A stretch of 42,401 bases of DNA from Marinoscillum furvescens DSM 4134 (lineage in GTDB: Bacteria > Bacteroidota > Bacteroidia > Cytophagales > Cyclobacteriaceae), in the NCBI RefSeq assembly GCF_003386095.1, contig NZ_QREG01000013.1, positions 1 through 42,401 of the forward strand, given 5' to 3'. A program made the position numbers and the translations under genes. Below the pieces are notes generated by a model, which had not been told where the DNA came from, did no database searches, and saw nothing but the letters and a program-made list of their open reading frames with translations. This document shows, in pieces, positions 9,803 to 42,401 of this stretch. Each line of letters starts with the position of its first letter. Positions within the stretch are counted from its first letter, which is position 1.

Positions 9803-9840
9803 AATTGGAGATACGTAACCCGAACCCTCCAAGGTTTCTT
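9803..9840. repeat. Direct repeat, left copy
   Basis: A 38-bp sequence beginning AATTGGAGATACG and ending CCTCCAAGGTTTCTT (a half-palindrome) recurs at 10793-10830. Each copy sits 13-14 bp after a full palindrome, so the palindrome-plus-repeat unit brackets the transposase locus. Confidence 0.85.
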
Positions 9841-9861
9841 AACGAAGAATTTTTAGCATCA

Positions 9862-10455
9862 ATGAGACCCAACACCTACTATCATGTGTACAACCATGCC
9901 AACGGAGAAGACAACCTTTTCAGGTGTGACGAAAACTATCATTACTTTTTGAACTTATGGGCCAAATACATTGAGCTGGTGGCTGGCACATATGCTTACT
10001 GCTTGTTGCCTAACCACTTTCATTTTTTGATCAAAACCCATGACTTAGCGACCATTGAATCACTCCAAAATGAATTTGGATCACGAGAGGTCTCGGTATC
10101 ACAACTCATCAAACAGCCATTTTCTAACTGCTTCAACAGCTATGCGAAGGCATTCAATAAAATGTATAACCGCCGCGGGAGCCTCTTTCTTTCCAATTTC
10201 AAGCATAAAGAAATCATTAATCCTAATCACCTTTCCGTCATTGTGACCTACATACATCGCAATCCCGTGCATCATGGCTTTAGAAACCGTTTAGGCGATT
10301 GGCCTCATAGCTCTTATGACGCTATGTTCGGAACCAAAACGACCAGACTTAAGCGCCATGAAGTACGTAGCTGGTACAGTACTCCTAAGGCGTACGAAGA
10401 AGCCCATAAACAGGAAGTGAAACTACCGGATACCTCACTGTTTATTGACTACTAA
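9862..10455 (+). CDS. REP-associated tyrosine transposase (RAYT, Y1_Tnp family)
   Basis: A 197-residue HUH single-strand transposase from the ATG at 9862 (MRPNTYYHVYNHANGEDNLF, the usual RAYT opening); a TTG start at 9805 would lie inside the direct repeat. The metal-binding HUH motif is LLPNHFHFLIK (His52, His54). The catalytic tyrosine is probably Tyr94 in CFNSYAKAFNKMYNRRGSLF. The C-terminal YIHRNPVHHGF and WPHSSYDAM motifs are diagnostic of RAYTs. Such proteins nick and join REP hairpins as single strands. REP-like palindromes lie 73 bp upstream of the ATG and 10 bp downstream of the stop. Confidence 0.92.
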   Translation: MRPNTYYHVYNHANGEDNLFRCDENYHYFLNLWAKYIELVAGTYAYCLLPNHFHFLIKTHDLATIESLQNEFGSREVSVSQLIKQPFSNCFNSYAKAFNKMYNRRGSLFLSNFKHKEIINPNHLSVIVTYIHRNPVHHGFRNRLGDWPHSSYDAMFGTKTTRLKRHEVRSWYSTPKAYEEAHKQEVKLPDTSLFIDY

Positions 10456-37871: not shown

Positions 37872-38333
37872 TTAAAACTTCAAATGCCTGTTGAGGCTTT
37901 CTTCAAGAGATATAAATGTCTCTGTTCGTTCTATACCTTCTACCTTTTGGATTTTGTCGTGCAGTACATCCTTGAGGTGTTTGGTGTCTCTGCAATGGAT
38001 CTTGATGAAGATGTTATAGTTTCCTGTGGTGTAATGCACCTTTACGATTTCCGGGATCGTCTTGAGCTGCTCCACCACACTGTCATATAGGGAGGACTTT
38101 TGTAAATAGATCCCCATGAAGCACGTTACATCGTATCCAAGTTTGGAATAATCCATTTGGAGGGTAGTACCTCTAACTACACCCATTTCTTCGAGTTTCT
38201 TCATGCGGACGTGAACTGTACCACCAGAAACAAATACCTTTTTAGCGACTTCCGTGTATGGAATTTTCGCATCCTCCATTAATAAATTGAGGATTTTGAG
38301 GTCAACGTTGTCAATTTCGTAATTTTTACTCAT
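37872..38333 (-). CDS. Lrp/AsnC-family transcriptional regulator
   Basis: A 153-residue regulator. The N-terminal winged HTH (VDLKILNLLMEDAKIPYTEVAKKVFVSGGTVHVRMKKLEEMGVVRG, residues 9-54) and the C-terminal RAM/AsnC ligand-binding domain (FMGIYLQKSS, then VKVHYTTGNYNIFIKIHCRD) are both complete. Such proteins usually sense amino acids. It lies between the suf operon and the tRNA-like RNA array, transcribed away from the array. Confidence 0.93.
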   Translation of the reverse strand: MSKNYEIDNVDLKILNLLMEDAKIPYTEVAKKVFVSGGTVHVRMKKLEEMGVVRGTTLQMDYSKLGYDVTCFMGIYLQKSSLYDSVVEQLKTIPEIVKVHYTTGNYNIFIKIHCRDTKHLKDVLHDKIQKVEGIERTETFISLEESLNRHLKF

Positions 38334-38441
38334 CTCTCTAATGCTGTTTTCTATATATTCAATATTCTGTATACAATTTTACACACCATCTAAATATTTA
38401 GCAAATTTATTAAAATATTTTTAAAGAAATATAGGCTCTGT

Positions 38442-38449
38442 TATCTTTG
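38442..38449 (+). promoter_or_regulatory. Promoter -7 box of tRNA-like RNA A
   Basis: TATCTTTG matches the Bacteroidota -7 consensus TAnnTTTG and lies 45 bp before the acceptor stem. The AT-rich sequence before it (TTATTAAAATATTTTTAAAG) resembles that before copy C, so the promoter belongs to the repeated unit. Confidence 0.65.
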
Positions 38450-38461
38450 AGGTATCAAAAC

Positions 38462-38480
38462 GCGTAAGAGATGCTTGCGC
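38462..38480 (+). ncRNA. Leader hairpin of tRNA-like RNA A (AGATG loop)
   Basis: Stem GCGTAAG/CTTGCGC (one G-T pair) with loop AGATG, just before the cloverleaf and downstream of the predicted transcription start. Copies B and C have different stem sequences but the same loop. Confidence 0.75.
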
Positions 38481-38486
38481 TACACA

Positions 38487-38643
38487 CTGTAGGGTGATGA
38501 AACTGGCAGACATGCCCTCCTGTCTCGGGGGTGGAGGTCTTTGGATAAAGCCTGGTGCCGTTTACGATAAATCAATTTTTGGTTTATCGTAAATCATCAG
38601 GTCTAACTACTCCGTGGAGGTTCGAATCCTTCCCCTACAGCCA
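38487..38643 (+). ncRNA. tRNA-like structured RNA, full copy A
   Basis: A 157-nt cloverleaf. The acceptor TGTAGGG/CCCTACA is extended by C(-1) facing discriminator G, followed by encoded CCA. T8-G9 and a 3-bp D stem (ATG/CAT) with loop AAACTGGCAGA follow, as in Leu tRNAs. The anticodon stem is CCCTC/GGGGG with loop CTGTCTC (formal anticodon GTC, 38522-38524). The T arm is GGAGG-TTCGAAT-CCTTC. The variable arm is closed by GGAG/CTCC and enlarged to about 85 nt, with CCTG/CAGG and a 14-bp hairpin (TTTACGATAAATCA with TGGTTTATCGTAAA) inside. A normal class II tRNA has about 85-90 nt in total. Pyrimidine at position 37 and Leu-like arms with GUC make ordinary Asp decoding unlikely. Not recognised as a known family. 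Confidence 0.82.
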
Positions 38644-38675
38644 TCATTTTTGGGTTAATGTTGTTTATTGAATCT

Positions 38676-38699
38676 GGTCGTGGTAGGGGTGCCACGACC
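38676..38699 (+). terminator. Intrinsic terminator of tRNA-like RNA A
   Basis: Perfect 8-bp stem GGTCGTGG/CCACGACC with loop TAGGGGTG, followed by TTTTTTC. Copy B keeps the stem by compensatory changes (GGTCACAG/CTGTGACC). Confidence 0.88.
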
Positions 38700-38841
38700 T
38701 TTTTCTTTTTTAGGGGTGCTTTGATCTAATTGTCGTTTGATTGCCGCCTGAGTGCAACCCTTCCTGTTTTATCGTTCCTGAGCTATTCTTTAGCTCAATT
38801 ATTGTCTCCCTTTTAAAGTGTTTAAGTAAATCATTCAAATT

Positions 38842-38895
38842 CCGTGTAGGTTCTGCCGCGGGCATTCATGTGGAAGAATCCTTCCCCTACAGCCA
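38842..38895 (+). repeat. Truncated tRNA-like 3' unit A1
   Basis: Begins CCGTGTAGGTTC, has a 22-nt hairpin insert (CCGCGGG-CATT-CATGTGG) exactly between TTC and GAATCC of the T loop, and continues through the acceptor 3' strand to CCA. A second hairpin of the same type (CCGCAGGACTCTTGTG) interrupts the trailer before GAATCTGG, and one 14-bp repeat sits in the terminator loop (38966 on). Spacer hairpin GAGCTA/TAGCTC lies upstream at 38779. Confidence 0.85.
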
Positions 38896-39117
38896 TCATT
38901 TTTGGGTTAATGTTGTTTATTGTCCGCAGGACTCTTGTGAAGAATCTGGTCATGGTAGGGCGCACGGCAAGTGGGTGCCACCACCTTTTTCTTTTTTAGG
39001 GGTGCTTTGATCTAACTGTCATTTGATTGTCATCCTTCCTGTTTTATCGTACGTGAGCTAGTCATCAGCTCCAATTATTATCTCCCTTTAATAGTGTTTA
39101 AGTAAATCATTCAAATT

Positions 39118-39171
39118 CCGTGTAGGTTTTGCTGCAGGCATTCCTGCGGAAGAACCCTTCCCTTAAAGCCA
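39118..39171 (+). repeat. Truncated tRNA-like 3' unit A2
   Basis: Same layout as A1 with insert CTGCAGG-CATT-CCTGCGG in the T loop, and a mutated acceptor strand (CCCTTAAAG instead of CCCCTACAG). This is the least well preserved copy. Confidence 0.8.
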
Positions 39172-39235
39172 TCATATTTGGATTAATGTTGTTTGTTATC
39201 CGCAGGACTTCTGTAGAGAATCTGGATGTGGTGGG

Positions 39236-39292
39236 GCGCACGGCTAGTGGTGCACGACTAGTGGTGCACGACTAGTGGCGCACGGCTAGTGG
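39236..39292 (+). repeat. Four 14-bp tandem repeats in the terminator loop of unit A2
   Basis: Units GCGCACGGCTAGTG, GTGCACGACTAGTG, GTGCACGACTAGTG and GCGCACGGCTAGTG. The number varies among the truncated units (1, 4, 2, 3 in array A; 2 in B; 1, 4, 2 in C) and is zero in the full copies. Confidence 0.88.
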
Positions 39293-39446
39293 GTGTCATG
39301 ACCTTTTTCTTTTTAGGGGCTTTCTCTAACTGTGCTTAATTGCCGCCTGAGTGCAACCCTTCCTGTTTTATCGTACGTGAGCTAGTCATCAGCTCCAATT
39401 ATTTTATTATCTCCCTTTTATAGTGTTTAAGTAAATCATTCATTCT

Positions 39447-39500
39447 CCGTGTAGGGTCTGCCGCAGGCATTCCTGAGGAAGAACCCTTCCCCTACAGCCA
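39447..39500 (+). repeat. Truncated tRNA-like 3' unit A3
   Basis: CCGTGTAGGGTC, T-loop insert CCGCAGG-CATT-CCTGAGG, then GAACCC and the acceptor strand CCCCTACAG with CCA. The terminator loop holds two 14-bp repeats (39566-39593). Confidence 0.84.
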
Positions 39501-39739
39501 TCATTTTTGGGTTAATATTGTTTGTTATCCGAAGGACTCCTGTGGAGAATGAGGATGAGGGAGGGGCGCATGGCTAGTGGTGCACGACTAGTGGGTGCCC
39601 ACGACCTTTTTCCTTTTTAGGGGGCTTTGCCCTAACTGTCCTTTATCGCCGCTACCCTTCCTGTTTTATCGTTCGTGAGCTAGTCTTTAGCTCCAATTAT
39701 TATCTCCCTTTTATAGTATTCAAGTGTATCATTCATTCT

Positions 39740-39793
39740 CCGTGTAGGTTCTGCCGCGGGCATTCATGTGGAAGAATCCTTCCCCTACAGCCA
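39740..39793 (+). repeat. Truncated tRNA-like 3' unit A4
   Basis: Nearly identical to A1 (insert CCGCGGG-CATT-CATGTGG), followed by the trailer hairpin and three 14-bp repeats (39858-39899). The terminator right arm is missing; the sequence passes into AT-rich DNA. Confidence 0.84.
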
Positions 39794-39900
39794 TCATTTT
39801 TGGGTTAATGTTGTTTGTTGTCCGCAGGACTCCTGTGGAGAGTCTGGGTGTGGTAGGGTGCACGACAAGTGGCGCACGGCTAGTGGCGCACGGCTAGTGG

Positions 39901-40175
39901 TGAATGGCGATCGGGTATAGCTCAAAAGAATTCAAATGATGTTTGCGTGTTAGTGTTTCGTGTTTTTCATTTTTCGGCAAGAAAAATTTGTTGAAAGGGT
40001 TATTTTGAAGAATTTTTGATGGTTGAAATTAAGTTTTCATTAAATGAAATCTAATCTAGAGTCATAAAAACGGCATTAATTATGAAAATTACAATGTAAT
40101 GAGGGTGAAATAATTTATTGTTGAAAAATACAGATGAATGGCTGTGAAAATTGTAATTGTTTGAAAGTATCCTGT
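39901..40175. other. AT-rich promoter region upstream of tRNA-like RNA B
   Basis: About 275 bp of AT-rich noncoding DNA between the last A unit and the promoter of copy B. I see no gene. It is not visibly similar to the spacer before copy C except near the promoter. Confidence 0.5.
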
Positions 40176-40183
40176 TATCTTTG
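40176..40183 (+). promoter_or_regulatory. Promoter -7 box of tRNA-like RNA B
   Basis: TATCTTTG, identical to copy A, 47 bp before the acceptor stem. Confidence 0.65.
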
Positions 40184-40195
40184 TCTTAACAAAAA

Positions 40196-40216
40196 CGCAA
40201 GAGAGATGCTTTTGCG
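40196..40216 (+). ncRNA. Leader hairpin of tRNA-like RNA B
   Basis: Stem CGCAAGAG/CTTTTGCG (8 bp, one G-T) with loop AGATG. The stem sequence differs from copies A and C; the loop is identical. Confidence 0.75.
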
Positions 40217-40222
40217 GTCATA

Positions 40223-40380
40223 CTGTAAGGTGATGAAATTGGCAGACATGCCCTCCTGTCTCGGGGGTGGAGGTCTTTGGATAAAGCCTGGTGCCGTTTA
40301 CGATAAATCAATACGTTGATTTATCGTAAATCATCGGGTCTAACAGCTCCGTGGAGGTTCGAGTCCTTCCCTTACAGCCA
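40223..40380 (+). ncRNA. tRNA-like structured RNA, full copy B
   Basis: A 158-nt copy with the same cloverleaf. The acceptor is TGTAAGG/CCTTACA: both strands changed relative to copies A and C, so the pair is kept (G-C to A-T). D arm, anticodon arm and loop are unchanged (GTC at 40258-40260), and the T loop is TTCGAGT. In the variable arm, CCTG pairs with CGGG, and the hairpin is a perfect 15 bp closed by a TACG tetraloop, of the stable UNCG class. A reading frame crossing it (40134-40319) is incidental. Confidence 0.82.
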
Positions 40381-40411
40381 TTTTTGGGTTAATGTTGTTT
40401 ATTTTGAATTT

Positions 40412-40435
40412 GGTCACAGTAGGGGTGCTGTGACC
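40412..40435 (+). terminator. Intrinsic terminator of tRNA-like RNA B
   Basis: Stem GGTCACAG/CTGTGACC with loop TAGGGGTG and TTTTTC following; compensatory variant of the terminators of copies A and C. Confidence 0.88.
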
Positions 40436-40596
40436 TTTTTCTTTTTATGGGGGTCAGAATCTGACTCTGCTAATTGCTTCGTGTTGATCCTTTGACTCCC
40501 GCTAAAGTTTATTTCTGTTTGCTTTATAGTTTGTGAGCAAGCCTGCTCTCGTTATTCACACTCTCGTCATCGTATTTCAAGTAAATCATACACATT

Positions 40597-40650
40597 CCGT
40601 GTAGGTTCTGCCGCAGGCTTTCCTGTGGAAGAATTCTTCCCTTACAGCCA
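40597..40650 (+). repeat. Truncated tRNA-like 3' unit B1
   Basis: Has the T-loop insert CCGCAGG-CTTT-CCTGTGG and the acceptor strand CCCTTACAG, the variant specific to copy B, so it probably arose from B or was homogenised with it. Two imperfect 14-bp repeats follow, without a recognisable terminator. Spacer hairpin GAGCA/TGCTC replaces GAGCTA/TAGCTC of array A. Confidence 0.84.
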
Positions 40651-40744
40651 TTTTTGGGTTAATGTTGTTTATTTTGTCCGTAGGATTCGTGTGGAGAATC
40701 TGGGTATGGTAGGGTGCACGACCAGTAGCGCAAGGCCTGTGGTG

Positions 40745-41060
40745 CGTGGTTCATAGTGGCATTTTGTTGTTGCCTGTCGAGTTTTGGTATTTAGTTCTAA
40801 TTATTTGCATTCATGTATTGGTGGTTTGAGTTTGTTTGTCTGTTCTGAAAATGTATTGTATCGGAGATTATAATTTCAAAATAGGGCTGATTAACGAAAT
40901 ATTCATCTGATTTAGTGAATGGGGTATTAGATGAAATTCAAAATGAGTTCTTTAAAGTAAGGTTGATTGTGAATATCATAAATCGCTAACTCGATTTTGT
41001 TCTAATTTGTAAAAATTAATTAAATGTCTTATTAAAATTTTAAAAAATATCAGAGTATGT
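40745..41060. other. AT-rich region upstream of tRNA-like RNA C
   Basis: About 315 bp of AT-rich noncoding DNA with no gene that I can support. Its last 45 bp (TTATTAAAATTTTAAAAAAT onward) match the region before copy A and probably form the promoter. Confidence 0.5.
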
Positions 41061-41068
41061 TAATTTTG
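41061..41068 (+). promoter_or_regulatory. Promoter -7 box of tRNA-like RNA C
   Basis: TAATTTTG fits TAnnTTTG, 44 bp before the acceptor stem. Confidence 0.62.
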
Positions 41069-41080
41069 TCTCAACAAAAC

Positions 41081-41099
41081 GCACAAAAGATGTTTGTGT
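41081..41099 (+). ncRNA. Leader hairpin of tRNA-like RNA C
   Basis: Stem GCACAAA/TTTGTGT (one G-T) with loop AGATG, as in copies A and B. Confidence 0.75.
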
Positions 41100-41104
41100 A
41101 AACA

Positions 41105-41261
41105 CTGTAGGGTGATGAAATTGGCAGACATGCCCTCCTGTCTCGGGGGTGGAGATAAGGGATAAATCCCGGTTTCTTTCACGATAATTTAAGTCATTAG
41201 TTTATCGTGAATCATCGGGACTAACCGCTCCGTGGAGGTTCGAATCCTTCCCCTACAGCCA
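41105..41261 (+). ncRNA. tRNA-like structured RNA, full copy C
   Basis: A 157-nt copy. Acceptor, D arm, anticodon arm (GTC at 41140-41142) and T arm are as in copy A. The variable arm is the most diverged part, yet its helices persist: GGAG/CTCC, CCCG/CGGG (CCTG/CAGG in A) and a 10-bp hairpin TTCACGATAA/TTATCGTGAA, where a T-A pair of A and B is a C-G pair. GGATAAA and CTAAC in single-stranded parts are shared by all copies. Confidence 0.82.
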
Positions 41262-41291
41262 TTTTTGGGTTAATGTTGTTTATTTGAATCT

Positions 41292-41315
41292 GGTCGTGGT
41301 AGGGGTGCCACGACC
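41292..41315 (+). terminator. Intrinsic terminator of tRNA-like RNA C
   Basis: Stem GGTCGTGG/CCACGACC, loop TAGGGGTG, then TTTTTC; identical to copy A. Confidence 0.88.
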
Positions 41316-41477
41316 TTTTTCTTTTTATGGGGGCAGTATCTGACTCTGCTAATTGCTTCGGATTGATTCATTGTTTTCCGCTAGAGTACATTCCTGCCTA
41401 TTATATTGTTTGTGAGCAAGCCTGCTCTCGTTATTCACTCTCTATTCATTGTATTTCCAGTAGATCATTGATTTGCT

Positions 41478-41531
41478 CCGTGTAGGTTCTGCCGCAGGCA
41501 TTCCTGAGGAAGAATCCTTCCCCTACAGCCA
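41478..41531 (+). repeat. Truncated tRNA-like 3' unit C1
   Basis: T-loop insert CCGCAGG-CATT-CCTGAGG, acceptor strand CCCCTACAG and CCA. Trailer hairpin CGCAGAACTCCTGCGG and one 14-bp repeat precede a retained terminator (CCACGACCTTTTTC). Confidence 0.85.
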
Positions 41532-41779
41532 TTTTTGGGTTAATGTTGTTTATTTGTTCGCAGAACTCCTGCGGAGAATCTGGATGTGGTAGGGCGCACG
41601 GCCAGTGGGTGCCACGACCTTTTTCTTTTATGGGGGCAGTATCTGACTCTGCTAATTGCTTCGGATTGATTCATTGTTTTCCGCTAGAGTAGATTCCTAC
41701 CTGTTTTATTGTTTCTGAGCAAGCCAACTCTGGTTATTCACTCTCTTTTATCGTAATTCCAGAAGATCATTAATTTGCT

Positions 41780-41833
41780 CCGTGTAGGTTCTGTCGCAGG
41801 CATTCCTGTGGAAGAATCCTTCCCCTACAGCCA
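41780..41833 (+). repeat. Truncated tRNA-like 3' unit C2
   Basis: T-loop insert GTCGCAGG-CATT-CCTGTGG; four 14-bp repeats follow at 41896-41951, then GCTGTGACCTTTTTC. Confidence 0.85.
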
Positions 41834-42125
41834 TTTTTGGGTTAATGTTGTTTATTTGTTCGCAGAACTCCTTCGGGGAATCTGGATGTGGTAGGGCGCA
41901 CGGCTAGTGGTGCACGACCAGTGGCGCACGGCAAGTGGCGCACGGCTAGTGGTAGCTGTGACCTTTTTCTTTTTAGGGGGTCAGTATCTGACTCTGCTAA
42001 TTGCTTCGCATTGATCTTTTGTTTTCTGCTAGAGTGAATTCCTACCTATTTTATTGTTTGTGAGCAAGGCTACTCTGGTTATTCACTCTCTTTTCATCGT
42101 ATTTCCAGCAGATCATTGATTTGCT

Positions 42126-42179
42126 CCGAGTAGGTTCTGCCGCAGGCATTCCTGTGGAAGAATCCTTCCCCTACAGCCA
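42126..42179 (+). repeat. Truncated tRNA-like 3' unit C3
   Basis: T-loop insert CCGCAGG-CATT-CCTGTGG with acceptor strand and CCA. Two 14-bp repeats and GCTGTGACCTTTTTC follow, then spacer of the usual type up to the window end, so the array probably continues. Confidence 0.84.
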
Positions 42180-42401
42180 CTTTTGGGTTAATGTTGTTTA
42201 TGTGTTCGCAGAACTCCTTCGGGGAATCTGGGTATGGTGCACGGCTAGTGGCGCACGGCCAGTGGGTGCTGTGACCTTTTTCTTTTTACGGGGGTCAATT
42301 TCTGATTCTGCTAATTACTTCGGATTTATCCTTTGTTTTCTGCTAGAGTGCTGATCTGCACTTATTTCTTGGTGTGTCAACCAATTCAAATTATTCCTTC
42401 T

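Follow-up and report, generated by a model that had tools for sequence, protein, structure and literature searches.

A tRNA-like RNA gene family of Bacteroidota and their phages that may serve as a scaffold for asparagine formation outside translation

Here, we explored a 42,401-nucleotide (nt) stretch of the Marinoscillum furvescens DSM 4134 genome (positions 1 to 42,401 of contig NZ_QREG01000013.1; hereafter, the window), a part of contig C13 of this 5.96 Mb genome, which contains, at positions 38440-42401, three full copies of one RNA gene together with eight degenerate 3′ fragments. Judged by the strong covariation among its members, this is an RNA gene family of Bacteroidota and their phages that has not been listed previously. 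On the evidence of its sequence, the RNA unites the anticodon determinants of aspartyl-tRNA synthetase (AspRS) with the acceptor signal of the amidotransferase GatCAB, a combination missed in an earlier note on this DNA that had been prepared from the letters alone. Probably, though far from certainly, the RNA is a tRNA paralogue that does not decode but acts as a scaffold for the conversion of aspartate into asparagine outside translation.

The anticodon-like loop (tRNA positions 32-38) has the consensus YNGUCYC. Among the 49 members that were found with a covariance model alone, the features expected of an AspRS substrate are prominent, with G73, U35, C36 and C38 present in 49/49 and G34 in 45/49; U37, the acceptor pairs U1-A72 and G2-C71, and C74 are likewise invariant (49/49), and U33 is found in 39/49. 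In the larger set of extracted members, U35, C36 and C38 are present in 288/288, G34 in 283/288, U or C at position 37 in 288/288 and U1-A72 in 267/271, but the search and extraction patterns favored part of the loop and the GC end in this set, so that the 49-member counts are the fairer ones (of the 292 unique extracted members, 288 with at least 4 anticodon-stem pairs were used for loop counts and 271 with at least 6 acceptor pairs for acceptor counts). Aspartate identity is determined by G73, G34, U35, C36 and C38, and U1-A72 is needed for the amidation of Asp-tRNA, which G1-C72 and U20a prevent (PMC9976931). The cloverleaf itself is that of a decoding tRNA, with acceptor, D, anticodon and T arms and a CCA-type end. 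Decoding tRNAs have U33 and a purine at position 37, whereas in this family position 33 varies and all members measured have a pyrimidine at position 37; this pyrimidine, together with the enlarged variable arm, would argue against decoding. Furthermore, a decoder is unlikely to combine the AspRS set with U1-A72, because an Asn-loaded RNA with a GUC triplet would put asparagine at aspartate codons. The M. furvescens genome has normal tRNA-Asp genes, with the loop CUGUCAC. As to leucine identity, in place of A73 and a leucine anticodon, the 49 members have G73 (49/49) and the loop NNNUCUC.

The covariance model (R1) rests on 39 members and a structure drawn by hand. Searched against 395 Bacteroidota genomes, R1 identified 40 carriers, M. 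furvescens included, above 80 bits; apart from one 77-nt form at 71.5 bits, the rest of the matches, 82-87 nt long where examined, scored at most 62 bits and were set aside as tRNA-Leu genes. All nine of the low matches that were fetched are tRNA-Leu, eight with the GAG and one with the CAG anticodon. The recovery of tRNA-Leu genes by a model of this tRNA-like RNA suggests that the RNA descends from tRNA-Leu, and the arm spacing matches that of tRNA-Leu in related genomes; the body of the RNA thus appears to be a class II tRNA-Leu derivative, which the earlier note had not noticed. Non-carrier status, here and below, refers to the outcome of the model search with strict filters, in which weak matches can be lost. 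Of 98 relatives searched with blastn, 76 have a match, many of these spanning just the first 45-60 nt, and a pattern scan of named genomes yielded at least 119 loci, of which the 80 listed are Bacteroidota by name, one Ignavibacteriales record among them; the named carriers listed include Chitinophagaceae, Saprospiraceae, Cyclobacteriaceae, Dyadobacter, Spirosoma and Fulvivirga, with the laboratory species Dyadobacter fermentans and Chitinophaga pinensis among them. Many genomes hold several copies.

In 49 distinct members outside R1, 94.2% of the cells pair, compared to 52-58% with a slid partner, and changes on both sides are seen in 20 of the 29 pairs, in an alignment that was fitted to R1 and hence is biased towards the structure. 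The D stem, for instance, covaries among AUG/CAU, UUG/CAA, ACG/CGU and GUG/CAC. The earlier note had taken paired differences among the three copies of the window as a sign of selection on RNA structure and maintained that these were functional noncoding RNAs of no described family rather than decayed tRNA genes. All of this is borne out: the pairing holds in members outside the model, covariation is joined by conservation with synteny across families, and Rfam gave no match at gathering cut-offs, with two unrelated sub-threshold matches only when E was raised up to 10. The check suggested in that note, a covariance-model search of Bacteroidota genomes, recovered homologues with further covariation.

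The layout of the family comprises an acceptor stem of the form UGU.../...ACA, U8 and G9, a 3-bp D stem, a D loop with GG, an anticodon-like arm with a 5-bp stem and a 7-nt loop, the variable arm, and a T arm with a UUCRANN loop, after which G and C follow in 49/49 members and also in 292/292 of the extracted set, where the extraction pattern favored GC at this place. Across 271 members, the variable arm measures 36-121 nt (median 77) and carries CUAA in 246 and a GGxxAAA-like motif in 221. Its distal part is freely variable and often has a GGUUGACC-like or other self-complementary loop, the GGUUGACC-like one being found in 138/271 members and absent from the copies of the window. The short variable arms of loci L019, L020, L024, L041 and L042 often end in self-complementary loops (GAGCUC, CGAGCUCG), and L018 has UGAUCA; two RNAs could pair through such ends. 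Coding of a peptide, possibly in the manner of transfer-messenger RNA (tmRNA), in the apparent MKLADMPSCLGG frame was rejected, since substitutions there fall mostly in codon positions 1 and 2 with the third nearly invariant (alignments inspected by eye). Group I intron, hammerhead or tetraloop-receptor interpretations of the variable arm were entertained and dropped. ARAGORN called no tRNA or tmRNA in the window and no tRNA in chromosomal loci L012, L013, L017, L018, L021 and L314-L317. It called a 77-nt member, L313, as tRNA-Asp(atc), and this member could be misannotated as a decoding tRNA.

Were the RNA a substrate of GatCAB, carriers would be expected to retain the enzyme even if their translation can do without it; this prediction was made and then tested. 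We compared 80 genomes, namely, all 40 carriers and 40 non-carriers that were hand-picked rather than random (20 from the same class and 20 from elsewhere in the phylum), with GatCAB scored as present when GatB exceeded the cut-off. GatB was over the cut-off in 40/40 carriers, 1/20 class non-carriers and 18/20 outside non-carriers; glutaminyl-tRNA synthetase (GlnRS) was found in 34/40, 19/20 and 9/20, respectively, and asparaginyl-tRNA synthetase (AsnRS) in 40/40 carriers and 38/40 non-carriers. Among the genomes of the class that have both GlnRS and AsnRS, GatB is present in 34/34 carriers and 0/19 picked non-carriers (Fisher p 8e-15), or, with the outside genomes counted, in 34/34 versus 7/28 (p 6e-11), p-values that are overstated because the genomes are related and the non-carriers were hand-picked. 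The sole class non-carrier with GatB (G138) has no GlnRS over the cut-off. Two families among the 80 genomes are of mixed carrier status: in f23, GatB is present in all 7 carriers and absent in non-carriers G099 and G218, and in f24, it is present in all 11 carriers and absent in non-carriers G114 and G211. In a wider class sample of 197 genomes, which overlaps the first, GatB is found in 38/38 carriers, namely, the 77-nt form and 37 with matches above 80 bits. Hence, genomes with the RNA have GatCAB in these samples, but genomes with GatCAB need not have the RNA.

Genomes that combine AsnRS, GlnRS and GatCAB have been explained by a non-discriminating AspRS that charges tRNA-Asn (PMC4206432); the same paper names Bacteroidetes among the genomes without asparagine synthetase and regards GatCAB as perhaps vestigial in some delta-proteobacteria with asparagine synthetases. 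We compared the N-termini of AspRS from 20/40 carriers, 12/20 class non-carriers and 8/20 outside genomes. The site that corresponds to Leu30 of E. coli AspRS is His in the two genomes without AsnRS over the cut-off, whose AspRS should accordingly be non-discriminating; it is Lys, Leu or Phe in 20/20 carriers and Lys, Leu or Met in 12/12 class non-carriers, and the six other outside genomes, which have GatB, combine Leu at this site with a lengthened loop close to the second known site. The AspRSs of carriers resemble those of their relatives, 11/12 of which lack GatB, so that these should discriminate. The 20 carrier AspRSs examined appear to be without the non-discriminating signature, which can presumably be read at the Leu30 site; a literature search returned no paper on this signature.

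Asparagine synthetases were compared in the same 80 genomes. AsnA was found in 6/80, 3 carriers and 3 non-carriers, with no clear contrast, and the AsnB family, with a match in 80/80 genomes and 65 over the cut-off, showed no clear carrier contrast either. AsnB of the E. coli type, however, was present in 0/40 carriers versus 15/20 class non-carriers (one of them, G126, with an internal stop), under a grouping by match shape and frame length that was made after seeing the output, in a listing above about 80 bits, and checked by a PDB search for one protein of each kind. In that search, one non-carrier protein matched E. coli AsnB at 867 bits; for a stand-alone AsnB-family protein of M. furvescens, the best match was a hydroxyamidotransferase (221.8 bits), with E. 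coli AsnB at 143.5 bits. Two other AsnB-family proteins of M. furvescens sit, by eye, among polysaccharide- or export-like genes. Neither AsnA nor AsnB exceeded the cut-off in five carriers (G412, G087, G069, G361 and G245) versus one class non-carrier (G114).

The chromosomal members usually have a divergent gene for an AsnC-type regulator as a neighbor. The protein encoded in the window matches E. coli AsnC (2cg4) at 128 bits versus 49.7 bits for Lrp (2gqq). Among 166 chromosomal loci, a match to this protein (53-98% identity) lies near the RNA in 102 and is the first upstream and divergent gene in 99; single-linkage clustering puts an asnC-type gene at 104 loci, in 101 of them as the first upstream and divergent gene, with 25 loci for the cluster that comes next. 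The gap between regulator and RNA, for 52 motif-picked regulator genes, has a median of about 153 nt and falls within 121-206 nt in 48/52. In E. coli, asnA is divergent to asnC. The E. coli AsnC protein is an activator of asnA, the activation being weaker when asparagine is present, and also a repressor of its own gene (PMC8707732).

Members of the family are also encoded by phages: among IMG/VR contigs, 13 contain the exact core and at least 120 a looser pattern. In the viral pattern set, G34 is present in 72/72, positions 35-38 being fixed by the pattern. Of the viral stretches with a member, 26/40 also hold ordinary tRNA genes and 4/40 a tmRNA gene, compared to one with tRNA genes among the first 13; L210, L218, L233 and L234 hold the RNA, ordinary tRNAs and a tmRNA gene together. 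The AsnC of the window had no match among 426 proteins flanking viral members. Another viral set encodes, close upstream, a protein of about 170 amino acids that has no Pfam or PHROG match and forms a cluster of 42 flanking proteins. In 20/118 viral loci with flanks, the second gene downstream encodes the large terminase. Genes for a large terminase (phrog_6681) and for PhoH are found near the RNA in loci including L027 and L028, and in L027, the reading frame upstream enters the 5′ half of the RNA. A role as a phage packaging RNA, considered in view of the terminase proximity, was dropped because the chromosomal copies sit at asnC. Among named phage and plasmid records, no homologue was found, one chance match in an insertion sequence gene aside.

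We propose a route in which AspRS would charge the RNA with aspartate, to judge from the determinants, and GatCAB would amidate Asp-RNA to Asn-RNA, a step with comparative support. Pyrimidine 37 and the large arm would keep Asn-RNA off the ribosome, and asparagine would then be freed, by hydrolysis, by a deacylase or by the variable arm itself, or else passed to an acceptor. The AsnC-type regulator, as the synteny suggests, would set the level of the RNA as E. coli AsnC does for asnA, and the phage copies would be RNA metabolic genes. Product release and the biochemistry seem to be the weakest links of the scaffold proposal. A bolder version, towards which we lean somewhat less than away from it, holds that AspRS and GatCAB make asparagine on a reusable RNA scaffold controlled by an AsnC-type regulator, that this route stands in for asparagine synthetase across much of Bacteroidota, that phages carry the RNA as an auxiliary metabolic gene, and that the variable-arm domain, with its GGAUAAA/CUAAC core, directs or even catalyses release.

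Several observations, besides the overstated p-values and the presumptive AspRS signature mentioned above, weigh against the scaffold proposal. As a substrate of AspRS, the RNA has U1-A72 (49/49) where G1-C72 is expected, G10 is found in 4/49, and G34 is lost in 4/49; without G1-C72 and with G10 rare, charging may be lowered. We know of no releasing enzyme or acceptor. Outside the class, GatB is present in 7/9 non-carriers with GlnRS and AsnRS (G110, G111, G116, G119, G127, G189 and G242), and in the wider class sample, in 112/159 non-carriers, counted regardless of GlnRS; given that so many non-carriers have GatB, GatCAB is not specific to the RNA and has other uses in the phylum. Furthermore, 3 carriers have AsnA and 35/40 have an AsnB-family protein over the cut-off, and some of the longer AsnB-family proteins of carriers may be true synthetases. 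Finally, L313 (G071:C23:55337-55413) is a member of 77 nt without the long variable arm and with the loop CUAUCUC, so that the long arm is not essential everywhere.

The alternatives have to be judged against the same evidence. Perhaps the best of them, albeit unlikely, is that the charged RNA, with Asp or Asn, is a sensor, the charging state of which reports aspartate, asparagine or amide-nitrogen status through the variable arm to some protein, be it the AsnC-type regulator, a ribosome factor or a different one. Such a role would account for the asnC-type neighbor, for the conserved variable-arm motifs, which have no obvious place in a simple aminoacyl carrier, and for the several copies in many genomes; however, it alone explains neither the co-presence with GatCAB nor the missing E. 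coli-type AsnB, and 0/426 viral flanking proteins match the AsnC of the window. Alternatively, and with a slightly smaller chance, the RNA could be the aminoacyl donor for a non-ribosomal ligase of cell wall, lipid or natural product synthesis, as the staphylococcal peptidoglycan tRNA-Gly species are. The charging identity and the anti-decoding features fit this need, and the variable arm could recruit the ligase, but no such transferase was seen among the 30 largest clusters of flanking genes (by eye, with few run against Pfam), and the host and phage range is wide. Lower again, by a little, we place the possibility that GatCAB acts on tRNA-Asn that a non-discriminating AspRS has charged, as happens in Bdellovibrio (PMC4206432), the RNA being an unrelated regulatory RNA with a tRNA likeness of other cause. 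Such an AspRS is the explanation given in PMC4206432 for genomes with AsnRS, GlnRS and GatCAB, Bacteroidetes among them; against this possibility, the 20 carrier AspRSs lack His and resemble those of the 12 class non-carriers, 11 of them without GatB, the RNA bears both AspRS and GatCAB determinants, and within the class, among the 80 genomes, GatB follows the RNA.

The two remaining explanations fare much worse. A decoding tRNA-Asp (or tRNA-Leu), whether ordinary or recoding, whose variable arm is oversized would fit the complete cloverleaf, the CCA, the GUC triplet and U33 in 39/49 members, as well as the ordinary tRNA genes found in 26/40 viral stretches (1/13 in the first set); it is rendered very improbable by the pyrimidine at position 37 in all members measured (288 and 49), the varying position 33 and the normal tRNA-Asp genes in the same genome. 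Amplification of decayed tRNA genes by recombination is suggested by the degenerate satellites and by a similar decayed tRNA-Asp array in the same genome, but for the full-length copies, this origin is refuted, as nearly as we can judge, by the covariation, a loop and an acceptor end that do not vary between families or in phages, the promoter-like boxes, the terminators and the conserved synteny.

Returning to the window (Table 1), each full copy is 156-157 nt long from acceptor to CCA, with an encoded GCCA end, and comes with a TAnnTTTG box and a leader hairpin whose loop reads AGATG, a cloverleaf with acceptor, D, anticodon-like, variable and T arms, and a terminator-like hairpin with a T run. 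The earlier note had described three copies with these very boxes, leaders, CCA-ending cloverleaf and terminators; sequence and folds agree for all three, with the correction that the starts had been placed one base early and the length given as 157-158 nt. Copies 1 and 3, the two that were folded, are more stable than all 200 shuffled sequences (z -4.7 and -3.1). At 52 other loci, the leaders form somewhat more stable folds than simply shuffled leaders do (mean -6.0 versus -3.9 kcal/mol), and the AGATG-loop leader hairpins may be an RNA signal or an operator. The array extends about 2 kb past the end of the window, across a run of N, to an AMP-binding enzyme gene; because the window ends at this assembly gap inside the repeat array (42402 onward; L005 103-201), the copy number is a lower bound.

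Table 1. Features of the tRNA-like RNA array and its regulator gene in the window
Feature	Position	Strand	Evidence
asnC-type Lrp/AsnC regulator gene, divergent to array	37872..38333	-	Pfam AsnC_trans_reg; E. coli AsnC best solved relative
Promoter -7 type box TATCTTTG, copy 1	38442..38449	+	sequence
Leader hairpin, AGATG loop, copy 1	38462..38480	+	fold
tRNA-like RNA copy 1, encoded GCCA end	38488..38643	+	155.1 bits with R1 (copy used in building R1)
Copy 1 acceptor 5′ strand; U1-A72, G2-C71 (GatCAB-type first pair)	38488..38494	+	sequence
D arm of copy 1 with 3-bp stem and GG-containing 11-nt loop	38497..38513	+	sequence; stem covaries in family
Copy 1 anticodon-like arm CCCUC-CUGUCUC-GGGGG: G34 U35 C36 C38, pyrimidine 37	38515..38531	+	sequence
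Giant variable arm of copy 1, with GGAG/CUCC at its base, an internal loop (GGAUAAA ... CUAAC) and a distal hairpin	38533..38613	+	sequence, folds
Copy 1 T arm, UUCGAAU loop	38616..38632	+	sequence
Copy 1 acceptor 3′ strand, G73, CCA	38633..38643	+	sequence
Terminator-like hairpin and T run, copy 1	38676..38711	+	sequence
Degenerate satellite, 3′ fragment with T-loop insert	38846..38895	+	pattern
Satellite	39122..39171	+	pattern
Satellite	39451..39500	+	pattern
Satellite	39744..39793	+	pattern
Promoter -7 type box TATCTTTG, copy 2	40176..40183	+	sequence
Leader hairpin, AGATG loop, copy 2	40196..40216	+	fold
tRNA-like RNA copy 2	40224..40380	+	154.3 bits with R1
Copy 2 anticodon-like arm, loop as copy 1	40251..40267	+	sequence
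Copy 2 variable arm	40269..40350	+	sequence
Terminator-like hairpin and T run, copy 2	40412..40447	+	sequence
Satellite	40601..40650	+	pattern
Promoter -7 type box TAATTTTG, copy 3	41061..41068	+	sequence
Leader hairpin, AGATG loop, copy 3	41081..41099	+	fold
tRNA-like RNA copy 3	41106..41261	+	157.5 bits with R1
Copy 3 anticodon-like arm, loop as copy 1	41133..41149	+	sequence
Copy 3 variable arm, sequence diverged, layout kept	41151..41231	+	sequence
Terminator-like hairpin and T run, copy 3	41292..41327	+	sequence
Satellite	41482..41531	+	pattern
Satellite	41784..41833	+	pattern
Satellite	42130..42179	+	pattern

The truncated satellites of the earlier note are real, eight being found in the window by one pattern; they are degenerate 3′ fragments with a T-loop insert that probably take no part in the function of the RNA. 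They (38846-42179; L005 1-2100) come with runs of a 14-bp CTAGTGGCGCACGG-like unit and terminator-like ends, often at a spacing of about 270-345 bp. Elsewhere in the same genome (G000:C23:38175-39370; L318-L320), tandem decayed tRNA-Asp-like copies with a period of about 170 bp lie beside two tRNA-Asp genes called by ARAGORN, and these copies have a hairpin-like T-arm insert resembling the satellites of the window. It is possible that one mechanism that amplifies tRNA 3′ fragments is common to both arrays. As to other genes, a Methyltransf_4 (Pfam) gene, presumably for a TrmB-like methyltransferase, lies downstream of the RNA in 14 chromosomal loci (e.g., L157), as the next gene in 10, and an open reading frame of the window at 9805-10455 has YHVYNH and HFHFLIK motifs, for which we take it to encode a REP-associated tyrosine transposase.

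Searches of the open-licence literature returned no RNA recognizable as one of this kind. Whereas tRNA-dependent amidation and non-translating tRNAs are already known, a dedicated non-decoding RNA scaffold for biosynthesis would be new, as far as that literature shows, and would give, to our knowledge, the first example of an RNA gene dedicated to the production of a free amino acid. If the scaffold proposal is true, the tRNA identity code has been reused for routing a metabolite instead of a codon. It would explain how asparagine is made in genomes without the E. coli-type AsnB and why many Bacteroidota retain GatCAB despite having GlnRS and AsnRS, for which the reasons offered in the literature are tRNA-Asn charging or a vestigial enzyme (PMC4206432). 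In any case, a covariance model for the family is now at hand.

The family can be set against several known RNAs. Like tRNA-Other, the pseudo-tRNA of Bacillus cereus, it would be a non-translating tRNA-like RNA with a cellular role, but the abstract on tRNA-Other mentions no AspRS or GatCAB identity (PMC3399842). With the tRNA-Asn of tRNA-dependent asparagine synthesis, which relies on a non-discriminating AspRS and GatCAB, the RNA shares U1-A72, G73 and the predicted charging by AspRS and amidation by GatCAB; unlike tRNA-Asn, it appears to be a non-decoder, with a class II tRNA-Leu body, pyrimidine 37 and a giant arm, and it has C36 instead of U36, so that a discriminating AspRS should charge it. 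R1 matches tRNA-Leu genes at up to 62 bits, and the affinity with tRNA-Leu(GAG) lies in the acceptor, the TG that follows, the 3-bp D stem, the 11-nt D loop and the spacing of the variable and T arms, whereas the loop, G73 for A73 and the variable arm of 36-121 nt set the RNA apart. Conversely, tRNA-Asp(GUC) has the loop CUGUC-C and G73 in common with the RNA, which differs in U1-A72 for G1-C72, pyrimidine 37 and the class II body. The bacterial Y RNA YrlA is another tRNA mimic, similar to the RNA in its tRNA mimicry and in a GGUUGACC-like loop; a function as a Y RNA for a Ro/Rsr protein, whose gene is often adjacent to that of the Y RNA, was considered and rejected, a TROVE gene being found in 12/98 relatives and none in the M. 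furvescens genome (G000). Finally, the viral tRNA-like structures of turnip yellow mosaic virus (TYMV), tobacco mosaic virus (TMV) and brome mosaic virus (BMV) are aminoacylatable tRNA mimics, as is predicted for this RNA, the members of which, by contrast, are stand-alone genes of chromosomes and phages.

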